Shown here piece by piece: positions 1 through 9,262 of a DNA stretch of 64,000 nt (the first letter of the stretch is position 1; every line of letters starts with the position of its first letter). The translations under genes and the position numbers were made by a program. This stretch comes from Dulcicalothrix desertica PCC 7102 (GTDB taxonomy: Bacteria > Cyanobacteriota > Cyanobacteriia > Cyanobacteriales > Nostocaceae), in NCBI RefSeq assembly GCF_003991905.1, contig NZ_RSCL01000003.1:91092-155091 (forward strand), in the 5' to 3' direction. Below the pieces are notes generated by a model, which had not been told where the DNA came from, did no database searches, and worked only from the letters and a program-made list of their open reading frames with translations.

Positions 1-2160
1 CCCTCCTAACTGACAATAGGCAAAAGCTATTTTTGGTTGATTATCTAAGCGTTGATAAATCTGTAAATAATTTTGGCCACCCTCAATTGCTTGCTCATAC
101 TTGCCCCAATCTTGGTAGCAGTCGGATATTAAACCTGATAAATCAGCTATGCTCGCCTCTAATTTTAGTTGTTCGTAAAGGTCACGACTTTGCTGATAAT
201 GAGCAAGTGCTTGTTCGTACTTACCCCATGCTTGATAAATATATCCTAACTGCCAATATCCATTAGCTATATTTGGCTGATTATCTAAGTGTTGATAAAT
301 CTGTAAGTAATTTTGCTGACTCTCAATTGCCTGCTCGTACTTGCCCCAATCCCGGTAGCAATCAGATATCCAACCTAATAAATCAGCCATATCCGCCTCT
401 AATTTTAGTTGTTCGTAAAGGTCACGACTTTGCTGATAATGAGAAAGTGCTTGTTCGTACTTACCCCATTCTTGATAAATTTGTCCTAACTGCCAATATC
501 CATTAGCTATATTTGGTTGATTATCCAAGCGTTGATAAATTTGTAAATAATTTTGCCGACTCTCAATTGCCTGCTCGTACTTGCCCCAATCTTTGTAGCA
601 GTTGGATATCAAACCTGATAAATCAGCTATGCTCGCCTCTAGTCCTAGTTGTTCGTAAAGGTCACGACTTTGCTGATAAGGAAAAATTGCTTGTTCGTAC
701 TGACCCGATTCTTGATAAATCCGTCCTAGCTGACAATATGCATTCGCGACATTTGGCTGATTATCTAAGCATTGGTAAATTTGTAAATAATTTTGCTGAC
801 TCTCAATTGCCTGCTCGTACTTGCCCCAATCTTTGTAGCAATCAGATATCCAACCTGATAAATCAGCCATATCCGCCTCTAGTCCTAGTTGTTTATAAAG
901 GTCACGACTTTGCTGATAATGAGAAAGTGCTTGTTCGTACTTATCCCATGCTTGATAAATTCGTCCTAACTGCCAATAGGCAACAGCTATATTTGGCTGA
1001 TTGTCCAAGCGTTGATAAATCTGTAAGTAATTTTTGCGACTCTCAATTGCCTGCTCGTACTTACCCCAATCGCGATAGCAGTTGGATATCAAACCTGATA
1101 AATCAGCCGTATCCGCCTCTAGTCCTAGTTGTTCATAAAGGTCACGACTTTGCAGGTAATGAAAAAGTGCTTGTTCGTACTTATCCCATGTTTGATAAAT
1201 CCGTCCTAACCTCCGATAAGCAACAGCGATATTTAGCTGATTATCCAAGCGTTGATAAATTTGTAAGTAATTTTGCCGACTCTCAATAGCCTGCTTGTAC
1301 TTGCCCCAATCTCGGTAGCAGTCGGATATCCAACCTAATAAATCAGCCGTATCCGCCTCTAGTCCTAGTTGTTCATAAAGGTCACGACTTTGCTGGTAAT
1401 GAAAAAGTGCTTGTTCGTACTTATTCCATTCTTGATAAATTCGTCCTAACCTCCAATAAGCAAAAGCTATATTTGGCTGATTATCTAAGCGTTGATAAAT
1501 CTGTAAATAATTCTGCTGACTCTCAATAGCCTGCTTGTACTTGCCCCAATTCCGATAGCAGTCAGATATCCAACCTGATAGATCAGCCACATCTGCCTCT
1601 AGTCCTAGTTGTTCGTAAAAGTCACGACTTTGCTGATAATGATAAAGTGCTTGTTTGTGTTTGCTCCATGCTTGGTAAATCTGTCCTAACTGACAATAAG
1701 CAAAAGCTATATTTGGCTGGTTATCCAAGCGTTGATAAATCTGTAAGTAATTTTGCCGACTCTCAATTGCCTGCTTATATTTGCCCCAATCCTGGTAGCA
1801 GTCGGATATCCAACCTGATAAATCAGCCATATCCGCCTCTAGTCCTAATTGTTCGTAAAGATCACGACTTTGCTGATAATGGGAAAGTGCTTGTTCGTAC
1901 TTGTCCCATGCTTGATAAATCCGTCCTAACCTCCAATAGGCAAAAGCTATATTTTGCTGATTATCCAAACGTTGATAAATTTGTAAGTAATCCTGCCGAC
2001 TCTCAATTGCCTGCTTGTATTTGCCCCAATCCTGGTAGCAGTCGGATATCCAACCTAATAAATCAGCCACATCTGACTCTAGTCCTAGTTGTTCATAAAG
2101 ATCAAGACTTTGCTGATAATGATAAAGTGCTTGTTCGTACTTACCCCATTCTTGATAAAT
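1..2160 (-). repeat. Tandem 120-bp TPR coding repeat arranged as a 240-bp superrepeat
   Basis: The sequence repeats every 120 bp (one 40-codon TPR) and more exactly every 240 bp (an A+B pair), giving about nine pairs or 18 TPRs up to the window edge. Copies differ at few positions, mainly near the same codons, which points to recent amplification or gene conversion. No GGCGCC occurs in this stretch. Confidence 0.9.
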
Positions 2161-2457
2161 TTTACCAATATCCCATAGTGTATTTGCTTCGTTTTTTGAA
2201 TGGCTATGTTTTCTATCAATAGTTAAAGTCTGCTCAAAACATTCTACTGATTTCTGATATTTGCCATGTAAACGATGACAAACACCTTGATCTATCCAAA
2301 GATATCTAAAAGATAATGTATGAATATTTGAAGATAATTTTTTAAAGCATTGCTCATAATAAAAAAATGCTTCGTCAAATTCTTCTTTTTGTTGGTAACA
2401 AATAGCTAATGCCCAATTAAAATAAAGATTTAAATGACTATCTAATATTTGATTAAG
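1..2457 (-). pseudogene. TPR-repeat C-terminal part of the NACHT STAND gene, separated by an in-frame stop; runs off the left edge
   Basis: On the minus strand the reading frame of the upstream NACHT gene (2458-5148) stays open from 2457 down to base 1: I checked the triplets of this frame in most of the 60-base rows and saw no stop except the TAA at 2458-2460. The translation is a degenerate helical segment (about 95 codons) followed by 40-residue tetratricopeptide repeats of two alternating kinds, one with the core WGKYEQAL.HYQQS.DLYEQLG and one with DWGKYEQAIES.QNYLQIYQ. No ATG occurs in frame until about position 1830, deep inside the array, and no ribosome binding site was seen, so separate translation is unlikely. 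Either the gene carries a nonsense mutation (CAA to TAA would do it), or the stop is read through, or it is a sequence error. In STAND proteins such C-terminal repeats usually sense ligands. Confidence 0.75.
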
Positions 2458-5148
2458 TTATTCAAAAAGATTAACAGCTTTTTCGTAGTTATCTTCACGA
2501 AGGTAACTCATAAAAATCATAAACTTTAATGCTTTAATACTATTTCTATCAATATTTATATACTGACAATTTTTAAGGGCAGAAGACATTTCTTCGCCCA
2601 ATTCTTTTACTAAATACCGAATGCCACAAAATAGTATCGCATTTAATGTACCAACAATATCAATAACACAATTGACTAATTGCATATCTGCTTTTCCACA
2701 AGCAACAAATAAAATAGCTAGCTGCAACTTAACTCTATTTTCTTCTGATAAATTTGAGTCATTTGCAGCTTGTTTGAGTAGCGCAAATACTTCACCTTTT
2801 TGAGTAAACGATTCAATCCTGCGTAGCAGTTTTAAAAGTTGCTTGATTATATCATCAATACCATCTGTATCTAAACAAATAAGGGTAGTAACTAATTTTT
2901 GGATAATTTTCTTACGAATGCTACTATTACTTACCTCGACTTGAGTTAGAACTTCACCAGCAAATATTAAATCTTTTAAGTTTAATTCAAACTTACTTGT
3001 TTCTGATTTTTCAAGTGAATTTGACCAAACAAGAATAGCATCGTGAGATAAGGAATTTTTAAATTTTATATCGCCACCTTGAAGTGTAGGCTCATATGCG
3101 TCAAGTTTACTAAACAGTTTCTTTAATAATTTATCAACTTGTGCATTAAAGTGTATTCCGTAATAGCCTAATGCTAATAATATTGGTTCGTTCCAACGTG
3201 GCTCGTAGAAGTGTTTGTCAATTAGGCTTAAAATTTCACTTTGGTCGTTATCTGCTATGTAACGCGCGACAAAGTACTCTTCAAATGTTAGGTGCATAAA
3301 GCCGTAAATCCCAGGCGCCCTTTCAACAAATAGCCCAGTAGTTTCCCGCACTTTCCGCAAAAACTCTTCTACTGCTTGACGGACGCTTTCTGTGTCTGGC
3401 TCAATATCGTTTAATTCTGCAAGTTTTTCTGCTAGCTGTTGTTCTACTTCTGCTTGAGTTACTAACCCTGATGGTTTTTCTTCGTGCATCCAATAAGCTA
3501 GCGGCGCCAGTAGTCTCACTACCTCGGTTTCTTTAAGCACTACTGTTGGTGCATCAGGCAGTTTTTTACTTAGCTGCCAATCTTCTATTAATGTCTTAAC
3601 TGCTAAAGCATATAGTTCAACTCTACGATTTGGCAAACGGGCGCCATTGCGATGTATCAATGACAAAATAGTTAATAGCAAAGGGTTTGCCGTTAAACGC
3701 TTTACACCTTCGTTACCTTCTATTGCTTCTAAAATTTCCCTTGTTTGATTATCTCCTGCTGTTTGCCATTGCTCTTCGGTTGCTTCGGGTTGCTGTGCTT
3801 TTTCAACCGCGCGACACCAACGATGCAGAAATTTTTCTACCTCTTCGCTGTCCATATCCTCGATGGTAAATTCAGCAAAGCGGCTGCTTAGTTGTACGTC
3901 ACGGTAGCCAGCAATACGGCTTGTGATGACAAATTTATTACCTGCGAATTCATCAGCAAACTGATTGATGCGCTCAACTATTTGTCTGCGGCTCTCTTGG
4001 TCAAATACTTCGTCTAAGCCATCAAGTAATATTAAGCACTGCCCTTGCTGCATTGTTTCTAATATTCGTGCTATTACCTCAGCTTCAGCGTGGTATTGAC
4101 GTAAATAATCTAGTAAGCTCAAATTTGGTTGTTTGTCTAAGCGTTCTGCATAATCAGCTATACGAAAGAAAACAGGTAATAACGTTCTACCTAGTTCTTG
4201 TTCACCATCTGTAACTATTTCCTGGCTATCTCGTTTGGCAACAGCATAATGCAATGCTAGATAACGTAGTAGTGTTGTTTTACCTGCACCTGGCGCCCCC
4301 AAAATTACATTGTATTGGTTTTGCCGTACTGCTTCAGATAAATCAAGCTTTTGCGTAATAGTTTTTGTGGTAGTAGAAAAAGATGATTCGAGGACAACTG
4401 GTTCGTCATAGTAACTAGGCTCATCCAAGTCATGCGGACTAGAATTTCCAATTGTTAGCCTTTGCGTGTAATTACTTAATTCATGTCGCTCGGTTTCTAC
4501 TACCTCCTGGCGCCGTACTGCCTGTAGGGAAACATAAATTTGGTCTAGAAAAATATCTACTTGGCGCTGCACTTGCATTACACCACTAATTTTTAAATAA
4601 GAGTTTTCTGCAATTAGTCTTTCTAGATATGAATAAAGTAAGGGATTTAAAACAGGACGTGTCTCAAAGGTTACTACTTTGTTTCGCCAATCCCAAAAAT
4701 CTGGCGCCCGGTTGCTAAATTCCTTTAAAAATTCAGATTTGTTCAGCCAAAAAATCAATACGATGTCTCGGTTAAATATAGATTCTCTACCCAAATTTAA
4801 CTGTTTCATCTCGCGTACTAGGCGAGGTAAGGGCAATTGGTCTATTCCAAATGCCATTATTAACTTGCGGCTAGCTTCTTGCTGTATATTTGCTTGATTA
4901 TCTAAGCTGTAGAGAAAATTATATAGAGAATTATCGCTGTAGAAAAAGTTTTGAATTTGAAAGTTTTCGTCACAGTCTGATAATAAAGTTTTGAACTGCT
5001 CCACCACTGGATGTTGGGGACTGCTATCTGGGGCTATTGCAAAAATAATAGTGCCGCCATCAGATAGTTCTAAGGTGGTAACTAATTTATCTAGCTCTGT
5101 ATCGTCAGTTTCGCTTAGATAATTTGACTCTTGGGGAGCAGTTGTCAT
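2458..5148 (-). CDS. STAND-type NTPase with degenerate N-terminal P-loop-like domain and NACHT domain
   Basis: An 896-residue protein. Residues about 25-180 look like a nucleotide-free STAND-like domain: beta strands GGTIIFAIAP and KLIMAFGIDQL, then the motif RAPDFWDWR (147-155) typical of degenerate or inactive STAND modules, with no Walker A. A NACHT domain follows: Walker A GAPGAGKTT (about 284-292), Walker B ILLDGLDE (about 373-380), ITSRIAGY (about 408-415), and the conserved FMHLTFEEYFVARYI near residue 640. The C-terminal third is helical and ends at a TAA, beyond which the same frame continues into TPRs. STAND NTPases are signal-transducing switches, many of them in immunity or programmed death (family knowledge). 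The neighbour 72 bp upstream is an AAA/ORC-like ATPase on the same strand, so the two are probably co-transcribed. The role as a defence or conflict protein is inference. Confidence 0.8.
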   Translation of the reverse strand: MTTAPQESNYLSETDDTELDKLVTTLELSDGGTIIFAIAPDSSPQHPVVEQFKTLLSDCDENFQIQNFFYSDNSLYNFLYSLDNQANIQQEASRKLIMAFGIDQLPLPRLVREMKQLNLGRESIFNRDIVLIFWLNKSEFLKEFSNRAPDFWDWRNKVVTFETRPVLNPLLYSYLERLIAENSYLKISGVMQVQRQVDIFLDQIYVSLQAVRRQEVVETERHELSNYTQRLTIGNSSPHDLDEPSYYDEPVVLESSFSTTTKTITQKLDLSEAVRQNQYNVILGAPGAGKTTLLRYLALHYAVAKRDSQEIVTDGEQELGRTLLPVFFRIADYAERLDKQPNLSLLDYLRQYHAEAEVIARILETMQQGQCLILLDGLDEVFDQESRRQIVERINQFADEFAGNKFVITSRIAGYRDVQLSSRFAEFTIEDMDSEEVEKFLHRWCRAVEKAQQPEATEEQWQTAGDNQTREILEAIEGNEGVKRLTANPLLLTILSLIHRNGARLPNRRVELYALAVKTLIEDWQLSKKLPDAPTVVLKETEVVRLLAPLAYWMHEEKPSGLVTQAEVEQQLAEKLAELNDIEPDTESVRQAVEEFLRKVRETTGLFVERAPGIYGFMHLTFEEYFVARYIADNDQSEILSLIDKHFYEPRWNEPILLALGYYGIHFNAQVDKLLKKLFSKLDAYEPTLQGGDIKFKNSLSHDAILVWSNSLEKSETSKFELNLKDLIFAGEVLTQVEVSNSSIRKKIIQKLVTTLICLDTDGIDDIIKQLLKLLRRIESFTQKGEVFALLKQAANDSNLSEENRVKLQLAILFVACGKADMQLVNCVIDIVGTLNAILFCGIRYLVKELGEEMSSALKNCQYINIDRNSIKALKFMIFMSYLREDNYEKAVNLFE

Positions 5149-5220: not shown

Positions 5221-6510
5221 CTATCCCACGGGTTTCCAGCGTTCTAAGTCTTCGATAAGAATTGGGTTTACGTCAAACCAGTGATTTCGGCGCTCGTCGT
5301 AGTACCCTAGAACAAATTTGTTTTGTAATAATTCGTCACAAATTACAAAATCTCCTTTACCTGGTAAGTTGTAGGTTTTGGTATTGAGTTTGCCTGTACG
5401 ATGTATTTCTTCCATTGCAGGATAATGATAGTCGCTGAGAGTGTAGTCTTTACGGACTTGTTGTACTGCTTCAATTGCTGTGTCTAAATCTACTAATAGT
5501 AATTTTTTTCTTAAAGAGACTTCACAGGAAGCGCGTGCTAATCGTATTAAGTCACGGATAACACCACCGCTTTTCTCACATATTAACTCTAGTGCATCGG
5601 GGTTAAATAAACCTTTGTAGCTGTTGCCTAGTCGCGCAAGTCGCTTGTTGATGATGCTAATTAAAACATCTCTACCATCCGAGTGGTTATTAAGGGTAGG
5701 TTGGGAGTTGGCGCCACATTCAAAAACTGGCGGGTTTGTTAAATCTAGGCATTTTTGAAAGCTTTCCATTGGTTGGCGGAAGTTGGGTGAGTATCTGAGA
5801 GAGATGGGAATGGAATAAATAATGTGACAGCTTAATTCGGTGAGTAGGGGACTGGAAAACATTTGCAAGGCTGTGACAAAATCGTGTCTATCTAACCCAT
5901 CTACTATTACTACTAACTTTTGCTCGCTTTTTTTCTCTGCGACTTCAACAATGGCGTTTACTCTTTCAATTATTTCGCTGAGTACTGGGCGGATATTAAC
6001 GGTTTTAGTAAGTTTTTGGTTTAAACCTTGTTTGAGGATGAAACCAAGCTTTTCGATAAATTCTGGTAGTTTTAACCCTGCGTCAGTAGCTTCTTCGTCT
6101 TGTAATACTACTGTTTTGAGGCTATCTCCAAGATTTTGTAAGAGTTCGTCGTTTAATCCCCAATTTGATTGCAGGACTGTTTCAAAAATTTTTACACCAA
6201 TTAAAACTACTACTTCGGCGTAACCAATGTTGTAACGGTCAAGTGCTGTTTCTGTATCAACCCAAATTACTGTGTAATCTTGATTTAGTTGTTGTTGCAA
6301 CCACCGTAATTCAGTAGTTTTACCACCTCCTCTATGACCAGCTAGTAAAAATTTTGCTGGGTCGTCTTCCATTTCTAGCGAGGTGATGAGGCTGTCTACT
6401 GGGCTGTTGGCGCGTTGTACGTAAAAGTCTCGTAGGTCTTCGGGTTTATTTAGTGGCTCTTCTGGCTTAAATAATTGGTAAGCAGGTTTCCAAAATTTTG
6501 TATTGCTCAT
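5221..6510 (-). CDS. AAA/ORC-like P-loop ATPase, partner of the NACHT protein
   Basis: A 429-residue ATPase with Walker A GHRGGGKTT (58-66), Walker B KLVVIVDGLD (198-207), an arginine-rich RDLIRLAR segment after the ATPase core, and a winged-helix-like C-terminal tail (about 370-429). The arrangement resembles ORC/Cdc6- or KAP-like STAND-related ATPases found beside NACHT or iSTAND proteins in multicellular bacteria. No transmembrane segment or DNA-binding motif is evident. It lies first in the minus-strand pair, with a 72-bp gap to the NACHT gene, so joint expression is likely. An exact family was not assigned, and the cellular role is unknown. Confidence 0.7.
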   Translation of the reverse strand: MSNTKFWKPAYQLFKPEEPLNKPEDLRDFYVQRANSPVDSLITSLEMEDDPAKFLLAGHRGGGKTTELRWLQQQLNQDYTVIWVDTETALDRYNIGYAEVVVLIGVKIFETVLQSNWGLNDELLQNLGDSLKTVVLQDEEATDAGLKLPEFIEKLGFILKQGLNQKLTKTVNIRPVLSEIIERVNAIVEVAEKKSEQKLVVIVDGLDRHDFVTALQMFSSPLLTELSCHIIYSIPISLRYSPNFRQPMESFQKCLDLTNPPVFECGANSQPTLNNHSDGRDVLISIINKRLARLGNSYKGLFNPDALELICEKSGGVIRDLIRLARASCEVSLRKKLLLVDLDTAIEAVQQVRKDYTLSDYHYPAMEEIHRTGKLNTKTYNLPGKGDFVICDELLQNKFVLGYYDERRNHWFDVNPILIEDLERWKPVG

Positions 6511-7346: not shown

Positions 7347-8537
7347 TTAAGCCTTAGCGGGACGATTGGATAGCTGTGCCTCTCCATAAATATACTGTCC
7401 CAAAGCGTTAGCTTGCCGCGATGGTGCAGCTAAATGAGCGTTAATTTTTGCTTCTTTGAGTAAACGCTGCATGTCATCCCAGAAAAATTCGCCACCACCA
7501 CCAGTGAGAATTACGTCTGTCACCCGTTCTGGCAACCATGCTAATACACGATTACAAATTTCGCGGGAGAACATCTCAGTTAAGTTAGGTAGGAAATCAT
7601 CGAGGTTTGTTGGTTTGCCGGCGCCACGTGGACGGTAGAAGCGGTCACCTTTTGGACGGTTTACAGCAGCGATTAAAGATAATGATTGTGCGTCAGAACC
7701 TTCGATTTCAGCGGCAACTAGTTCGTAGAATTTGTTCATACCAAATTCTTCGCTCTTGGAAGCTCCACGTGCGAAGCGGAAGTTATCAACCATTAAGCAG
7801 TCGATTGTTTGGTGACCAATGTCAACGATGGCAACTGAAACTTTTGTAAAGTCAGGAGTTCCGGGGCCTTTTTTAGGTTGTGCTTCACACCATAACAAGC
7901 TGCCGTAACCTTCGGGCATTATCCAAACTTTGGTGACGTTGAGTTCTACTGTCTCACCACGGAAGTTCATTACGTGTGGTCCGCTGATTTGACTCATCAA
8001 CTGACTTTTTTCTTTTTCAAATTGCTCTTGGGAATGATAGGGCAAACTTAGTACTACAGAAATTTCGTCTTTGAGTTTGAAGTAACCTGCACAAGCTAAT
8101 ACTTTTGCAAGTGCGTCTTCTACCTTCGATTGACCCACACCTAAGTTAGCTCCAAAGTCAGCAGCTAATTGACCAATTGCGTAACCGCTACCTTGAAATT
8201 CCATCCACAAGTCCATCAATGGGTCGGTAGCACGTGCTTCAAATACTCCACCACGTACTTCTTCCATCGTCATTTTTTTGACGTTGGCAGGAATAAATAA
8301 TACGCTGTTTGGTTCGCGACTGACGGAGGTTTTTGTGGAAGTTCTACCTAAGTCAACGCTAAGTATATTTTTGCCTGAGCTATTTCCAGTTGGTCTTGGC
8401 GCCACTCCTGGGTTTGCTGTCATTGGATTTGCACCAATGGGGTTTGCAGTCACCGGGGTGCGATTCATTGGAATTGAGGCAGCGTTCATTGGAGTTGCTG
8501 CGCTAATTGGTGTTGTATTGTTGGGTTGGTCTGTCAT
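7347..8537 (-). CDS. ParM/StbA-family actin-like ATPase
   Basis: A 396-residue protein of the actin/HSP70 ATPase fold. After a low-complexity N-terminus of about 50 residues (repeated N-P-M/A motifs), it shows phosphate-1 loop ILSVDLGRTSTKT, a second phosphate loop VAIVDIGHQTIDCL, and adenosine motif DVILTGGGGEFFW. These match plasmid-segregation ParM and archaeal/phage actin-like proteins. A RHH-like gene follows 5 bp downstream, consistent with a parMR operon. Such operons usually push plasmids or phage DNA apart. Here the flanks look chromosomal, so the cargo is unknown: an integrated element, a megaplasmid origin of the contig, or a cytoskeletal role are all possible. Confidence 0.8.
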   Translation of the reverse strand: MTDQPNNTTPISAATPMNAASIPMNRTPVTANPIGANPMTANPGVAPRPTGNSSGKNILSVDLGRTSTKTSVSREPNSVLFIPANVKKMTMEEVRGGVFEARATDPLMDLWMEFQGSGYAIGQLAADFGANLGVGQSKVEDALAKVLACAGYFKLKDEISVVLSLPYHSQEQFEKEKSQLMSQISGPHVMNFRGETVELNVTKVWIMPEGYGSLLWCEAQPKKGPGTPDFTKVSVAIVDIGHQTIDCLMVDNFRFARGASKSEEFGMNKFYELVAAEIEGSDAQSLSLIAAVNRPKGDRFYRPRGAGKPTNLDDFLPNLTEMFSREICNRVLAWLPERVTDVILTGGGGEFFWDDMQRLLKEAKINAHLAAPSRQANALGQYIYGEAQLSNRPAKA

Positions 8538-8781: not shown

Positions 8782-9262
8782 CTATCTCGGTCTTCGTTTT
8801 TGTTTGCGTCTAAACACCCACAAGCTAAATGCTTATACCAAAGCCACCAGCACAATTTTTGATACAGGGGCAAGGTACTTATCAACTAACTCGTACCGTG
8901 TACAAGGACGCATATCCTGAGTATGTTAGCAAACATGTCCACAGTGCGCTACCCAATGTTGTATAAAATAAGAAAGATGGCAACAGCATGTTACCAATAC
9001 CCGCACGGTCAAACCATTCGATAGATTTAGTAATGTCTTTACTTGACACGGTTATCCACTTGCCGTATTTATCTGCAAGTTTCTTTAGAGAAGCTTGTGC
9101 TGCTGCAACTGCGACTTCTTTGGCTGTAAAACCTGCTAGGGGCATTATCAATTCCGATGGAATTGGTGGAAACAGGTTCTCTAAGAACATCATTAAAGCT
9201 ATTCCAAAGTAACCCAAGGAATAGACAATATTTATTACACTTGGTATTATCCAATCGAACAT
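8782..9262 (-). pseudogene. Decayed DedA-family membrane protein gene
   Basis: The start matches DedA proteins (ALMMFLENLFPPIPSELIMP, then GFTAKEVA), but the next family blocks are missing: the text jumps to ADKYGKWITVS and FDRAGIGNML, then straight to FLFYTTLGSALWT, so the segment normally carrying the arginine-proline loop of the transporter is deleted. The frame then shifts near 8900; in the next frame the family's C-terminus resumes (VDKYLAPVSKIVLVALV), followed by an internal TAA (8833-8835) and the basic tail FRRKQKRRPR ending at 8782. Two internal deletions, one frameshift and one stop make this a clear relic. DedA proteins are inner-membrane lipid/proton-dependent transporters. Confidence 0.8.

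Follow-up and report, generated by a model that had tools for sequence, protein, structure and literature searches.

Antiviral STAND receptors of the bNACHT/Avs type have a tripartite layout, and as set out in the portion of PMC10907252 used here, this layout matches that of the gene analysed in this study. The likeness consists of a central NACHT domain followed by a C-terminal TPR array; the difference lies at the N-terminus, where the present gene has an AAA+-like domain and no recognised effector. A second described group, the iSTAND ternary conflict systems (PMC7159879, in the sections drawn on), is comparable in that a conflict-type protein from multicellular bacteria contains an AAA+-type domain that appears to be inactive, although the resemblance is one of fold only, with TM-scores of about 0.3-0.4. 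As described in the same sections of that paper, the ternary systems have vWA/MoxR partners, whereas the conserved partner found here is a 429-aa P-loop NTPase (PMC7159879). Neither vWA nor MoxR was detected among the few neighbours that were scanned against Pfam, namely the neighbour at L056 2896-4329 and, within the window, four ORFs between 5224 and 10747.

The gene is interrupted by a stop codon. Belinky et al. 2021 (PMC7918605, in the part consulted) report that in-frame stops with dN/dS below 1 occur widely among bacteria. The nonsense alleles treated there resemble the present one in having one in-frame stop and an omega that is still below 1, and in that the stop is not shared at wider distance. 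The part of that study used here was, however, centred on stops common to at least two species, whereas the present stop occurred in one genome only (PMC7918605).

The window, i.e. the whole 64,000-nucleotide stretch of DNA that was analysed, lies in contig C3 of a genome of 11.4 Mb in 109 contigs. The following features of the window were relevant.

5221 to 6510, minus strand: upstream partner gene, a 429-aa P-loop NTPase, intact here (KAP_NTPase match of 21.5 bits, cut-off 20).
2461 to 5148, minus strand: 5′ piece of the NACHT-TPR gene, 896 codons (896 aa), encoding an AAA+-like alpha/beta domain, then a NACHT NTPase and a helical region, and including the greater part of the first TPR-like hairpin.
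2458 to 2460, minus strand: in-frame TAA, stop codon 897, a sense codon in 38 of 38 aligned relatives.
1 to 2457, minus strand: part of the 3′ piece within the window, 819 codons, TPR; it runs on past the window to C3:88584, 1654 codons in total.
2068 to 2070, minus strand: first possible start (GTG) after the TAA, 129 codons downstream and within the TPR array.
1 to 2160, minus strand: window part of a 240-bp tandem TPR array, interrupted by a 10-N gap that adjoins window base 1 on the outside.

The initial annotation had described a NACHT-TPR STAND gene whose minus-strand frame from 5148 to 2458 was split by a single TAA, with at least 819 more open codons after it, protein-like sequence on both sides and no start nearby for a second gene. 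These points were borne out. Translation of the reading frame placed the TAA at 2458-2460, codon 897 of an otherwise open frame, and the frame of the 5′ piece was open down to window base 1. Flanking DNA (L056, C3:83000-97500) extended the downstream part to 1654 codons, the frame ending at two consecutive stops at codons 2552-2553; apart from codon 897, it was open for 2551 codons. The nearest ATG, GTG or TTG past the TAA was the GTG at window 2070, 129 codons on. We scanned contigs C2 and C3 together with 180 kb of C4, in total 1.27 Mb out of 11.4 Mb, and found 37 stop codons flanked by at least 120 open codons on each side in the same frame. Among these, the TAA at 2458-2460 was the extreme both in distance to the first start and in summed open length, which marks it as exceeding chance. 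By eye, only a few others of these 37 same-frame neighbours resembled one gene cut in two; an example is a transposase-like pair separated by a TGA at C3:424728.

The tandem TPR array comprised 16.2 copies of the 240-bp unit with 85% matches (L056 6356-10252). A 10-N scaffold gap (L056 8083-8092, window -9 to 0) falls inside the array at the window edge, and the true length of the array is uncertain because of it. The length of the array (window 1-2160 together with L056 6356-8092) seems strongly species-dependent, at about 16 units here across the gap versus a whole protein of 1755 aa in Calothrix sp. HK-06. The TAA itself lies about 300 bases outside the array, in unique sequence that gave a single match in the genome.

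The domain matches agreed with the gene type and with the protein-like character of both pieces, NACHT before the stop and TPR after it. The NACHT domain (PF05729) covered residues 281-446 of the 5′ piece with 39.9 bits against a Pfam cut-off of 26.7, with P-loop residues visible in the translation, and TPR_12 matched in nine stretches of the TPR part. In the structure model of the 5′ piece, which had an overall mean pLDDT of 67.3 and low confidence past residue 189, residues of about 11-160 were predicted to form an alpha/beta fold with pLDDT of 66-90 in ten-residue blocks. This domain resembled AAA+ proteins such as clamp loaders and Rif2, the latter being a degenerate AAA+ protein; 62 Foldseek matches had E<=0.001, the best being 3.8e-5, with TM-scores of about 0.3-0.4. 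Upon reading of the sequence, no Walker A motif was seen in residues of about 11-160. The HK-06 orthologue from residue 641 on was modelled with a mean pLDDT of 88.4 and was helical over most of its length. The stop column corresponded to position 260 of this model, as counted by hand, within a helix at 251-262 that we read as the second helix of a predicted first TPR-like hairpin; with the stop in this hairpin, the truncated product would therefore keep the NACHT domain and the linker and lose the TPR array.

With regard to named defence families, the match to NCBIfam EruA reached 47.3 bits against an equivalog cut-off of 1000, and the protein is thus not an EruA member. In PADLOC, the P-loop matches of the NACHT piece were weak and partial, reaching 25 bits at best, and those of the rest were generic TPR matches; the libraries searched (PADLOC and NCBIfam) thus yielded no named anti-phage family for the receptor. 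By analogy with its family, the intact system may serve anti-phage or cell-death immunity.

To place the stop among relatives, contigs were scanned and 54 loci were obtained, 40 of them cyanobacterial and 14 distant. Thirty-eight loci aligned across the site and all carried a sense codon there, encoding 12 different residues, so that a stop at the same site was conserved between species in 0 of 38; L021 and L055 ended short of the site, and the 14 distant loci had no match there. The closest orthologue with an uninterrupted frame was that of Calothrix sp. HK-06, one NACHT-TPR protein of 1755 aa with 86% identity in the best segment. The initial annotation had proposed that the two pieces be aligned with intact homologues, and had held that homologues existing as two genes, the TPR part having a conserved start of its own, would speak against a split gene. 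The alignment was run with the outcome just given, and no such arrangement was found; in the relatives, one continuous frame crosses the site, except where a locus is broken at another place. Relative to its intact orthologues the present frame is interrupted, as in a nonsense pseudogene. When 145 genomes of the family were searched with HK-06 residues 1-1010, 18 had a match with E<=1e-100, this genome included, and an internal stop occurred in one of the 22 rows of the search, that of this genome.

Other loci were broken in other ways. Calothrix sp. NIES-4105 (L003, 87% identity) has a first frame that ends after 961 codons, the TPR part resuming in another frame; this break lies about 65 codons past the position of the TAA studied here (L003 about 8880). 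From the 40 cyanobacterial loci, seven that run off their contig and three with N in the frame (L009, L016 and L027) were set aside, and 5 of the remaining 30 had a C-terminal part beyond the first stop (L003, L004, L025, L029 and L032). L029, a Moorena MAG, had its own in-frame TAA at 8493-8495 on the plus strand, at the 840th codon of the match, after which the frame was open for 452 more codons, with a 100-N gap further on. Two loci were doubtful: L026 had a 40-aa C-terminal match in another frame, and L022, which ended early, yielded no C-terminal part within 5 kb. The loci among the 30 other than these named ones were not each checked for completeness. A family-specific excess of breakage was not supported, the rough rates being about 5 per 54,000 codons versus 1 per 16,000 in the partner gene; some loci are MAGs or drafts, in which errors inflate the break counts of both genes.

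We then estimated selection and the age of the stop on the branch leading to this genome, HK-06 and NIES-4105 forming the remaining tips of the tree. Omega was 0.072 (bootstrap 0.038-0.119) for residues 1-660 and 0.321 (bootstrap 0.165-0.742, a wide interval) for the C-terminal 255 codons. The C-terminal value was similar to those of the sister branches (0.285 for HK-06 and 0.328 for NIES-4105, also with wide bootstrap intervals). Residues 661-1030 were fast-evolving in all three pairs, with omega of 0.40-0.80, and the TAA therefore lies where the gene is under weak constraint. Downstream of it, the 1654 codons contained no further stop, versus about 50 expected if they had been neutral along the whole branch. 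This expectation was calculated with dS set to 0.135; the C-terminal own-branch dS was 0.151 (bootstrap 0.072-0.237), and own-branch dS ranged from 0.137 to 0.210 depending on the gene, which shifts the age bound. As none of the approximately 50 expected stops was seen, the TAA is either young or a base-call error. Assuming neutrality after the stop, it is probably confined to the last 6% or so of the branch (5-9% for dS of 0.17-0.09); calculated from codons outside the array only, the bound probably widens to about the last 34% (27-51%). Alternatively, the downstream part may still be in use.

The reading that we prefer is that a recent point mutation made a loss-of-function nonsense allele of a NACHT-TPR receptor, to which we assign a probability of about 0.76. 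The intact gene would encode a STAND receptor in which an AAA+-like domain and a NACHT NTPase are joined by a fast-evolving helical linker to a long homogenised TPR array, most likely the sensor. A point mutation in this strain would have created the in-frame UAA at codon 897, at which ribosomes would terminate to give a protein of about 896 aa with the NACHT domain and without the sensor array. This truncated protein would probably be inactive or unregulated, the TPR part would remain untranslated, and the allele would be too young for more damage to have built up. Among the four options offered by the initial annotation, a fresh nonsense mutation was thus the best supported, given the sense codon in 38 of 38 relatives; readthrough and phase switching gained no positive support, and a base-call error stays the main rival. 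Among the points that weigh against a young allele, a downstream part that was still translated would equally show no decay, and the presence in one genome of two NACHT genes split by TAA may exceed the genome-wide background, which was judged by eye; the wide C-terminal omega interval and the variation in own-branch dS count here as well. The preferred reading makes UAA recoding less plausible at this site, and the gene would illustrate a bacterial NLR-like receptor that carries a young nonsense allele, whose maximum age could here be estimated. Our literature searches returned no title about this gene.

A base-call or assembly error, in which case the gene would be intact in the strain and the TAA an artefact of the draft assembly, is unlikely. 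The assembly is a draft of 109 contigs with a 10-N gap in the TPR array of the same gene, 2.46 kb from the TAA, and one wrong base would be enough in a frame that shows no other damage. On the other hand, the TAA lies in unique sequence about 300 bases away from the tandem array, and in our judgement a substitution error that yields exactly a stop at this place is a priori improbable. A second NACHT gene with a single in-frame TAA also argues against a chance error here, although it fits a high error rate as well.

This second gene was found when the 34 NACHT matches of the genome were judged for in-frame stops alone; 2 of the 34, the gene studied and one on contig C60, were cut by a single in-frame TAA.

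L058 2548-2550 (contig C60), plus strand: single in-frame TAA of the second split NACHT gene.

Past this TAA, the C60 frame is open again and encodes a conserved segment as well as NACHT C-terminal helical domain 2 (NCH2, PF22727, 141 bits). The genus-mates, which showed 85-88% identity before the stop, were intact in the corresponding region: G002 and G005 had sense codons across the site, and G003 had an open frame of 905 codons. In the genus search as a whole, 3 of 69 NACHT-type matches contained an internal stop, one TAA and two TGA. We claim no test for an excess of TAA splits in NACHT genes from 2 in 34, the genome-wide background having been judged by eye with a different criterion. The simplest view of the two split genes is that single receptors of a large repertoire are lost independently of one another; the other view is an elevated assembly error rate.

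There is a slim chance that the UAA is either a tolerated site of low-level readthrough or a population-polymorphic off-switch that uncouples the sensor array, with several strains repeatedly silencing such receptors just past the NACHT-linker and the array being kept for reversion. It is slightly less likely still that regulated or low-level readthrough of the UAA gives some full-length receptor, the stop serving to lower the expression of a costly immune receptor. The lack of visible decay downstream would fit such readthrough, but the stop was common to 0 of 38 aligned relatives. Both release factors of bacteria recognise UAA. General readthrough in this genome was rejected: of 847 open frames of at least 150 codons in the 1.27 Mb, 503 ended with TAA, 211 with TAG and 133 with TGA, and general suppression would lengthen most proteins. 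The reported spread of in-frame stops with dN/dS below 1 through bacteria (PMC7918605, in the part used) is also compatible with readthrough.

The tRNA genes bear on the same point. A genome search gave 60 tRNA matches to RF00005, and ARAGORN called 28 tRNA genes in an array on contig C2.

L109 591-7334 (C2:248590-255333), minus strand: array of 28 tRNA genes called by ARAGORN, beside a scattered tRNA set.

As far as the trn operon of Anabaena PCC 7120 is described in the part of PMC10272220 drawn on here, the array resembles it; our searches of the literature found nothing linking the tRNA cluster and a suppressor in Anabaena. ARAGORN called no UUA anticodon in 39 loci that covered the 60 RF00005 matches. 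This set has gaps: an Ile tRNA was missing from the calls, a match on C41 had no call and some members of the array had been missed by the genome search. One tRNA of the array (L109 6111-6188, RF00005 47.3 bits) has an enlarged anticodon loop written 'ttat' and is ambiguous, which counts for readthrough; upon reading, UAU flanked by U33 and A37 appears to be a better fit for its anticodon than UUA. Another tRNA (L122 101-173) received a two-base anticodon call. The tRNA loci that were read, an incomplete survey, thus contained no clear ochre suppressor, which counts against readthrough.

We give little credence to the view that the truncated NACHT protein is itself selected and that loss of the TPR sensor is adaptive and recurrent. 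In its favour, NIES-4105 likewise has its TPR part in another frame, the break lying about 65 codons beyond the present stop, and residues 1-660 are strongly constrained both there (omega 0.121) and here (0.072), but this constraint probably accrued mostly before the breaks. The whole frame of HK-06 and the lack of decay in the downstream frame argue against selected truncation, as does a number of breaks per codon that, by a rough estimate, is no higher than in the partner gene.

Two genuine genes, NACHT and then TPR, translated separately by restart or from a second start, are highly improbable: both pieces are long and coding-like, but there is no ATG, GTG or TTG within 129 codons past the TAA, the first one lies inside the repeat array, and relatives continue in one frame across the site. 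Reversible phase switching was not supported: window 2200-2800 contained only poor inverted pairs (one of 33 nt with 73% complementarity flanking the stop and one of 18 nt with 78%) and one 23-nt direct pair, and single-base (A/T) runs in 2300-2620 were at most 7 long. Neither the repeats nor the runs offer a plausible switch, and a change in such a run would shift the frame and not create this TAA. A diversity-generating retroelement appears unlikely, since the site is not at a 3′ end (compared with the part of PMC10907252 used here).

The conserved NTPase gene upstream is, in our opinion, a more durable finding than the stop. It was found in 37 of the 40 cyanobacterial loci; in 36 of the 40 it lies upstream on the same strand and ends within about 650 bases of the receptor gene, and in L030 it lies downstream. 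The three misses were L035 and L037, which have almost no upstream sequence, and L048. Only 1 of the 14 distant loci contained it (L044, Chloroflexi, 29% identity). The own-branch omega of the NTPase was 0.068, and its frame was broken in 1 of the 37 cyanobacterial loci (L023), L020 being cut by a contig end. Judged from these sequences, the NTPase and the NACHT-TPR gene look like an old, kept module, and the results point to a conserved pair through filamentous cyanobacteria in which a P-loop NTPase stands beside an AAA-like/NACHT/TPR receptor. The NACHT-TPR layout alone would suggest a defence role for this pair.

Within flanks of only 6 kb, a phosphoglucomutase gene was found downstream of the receptor in 8 of 54 loci, the nearest relatives included. 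At window 8882-9262 on the minus strand, we also observed a 126-aa ORF, putatively DedA-like by reading, whose alignments with longer relatives, found in 8 of 54 loci, spanned 140-189 columns, as if it had been internally deleted.
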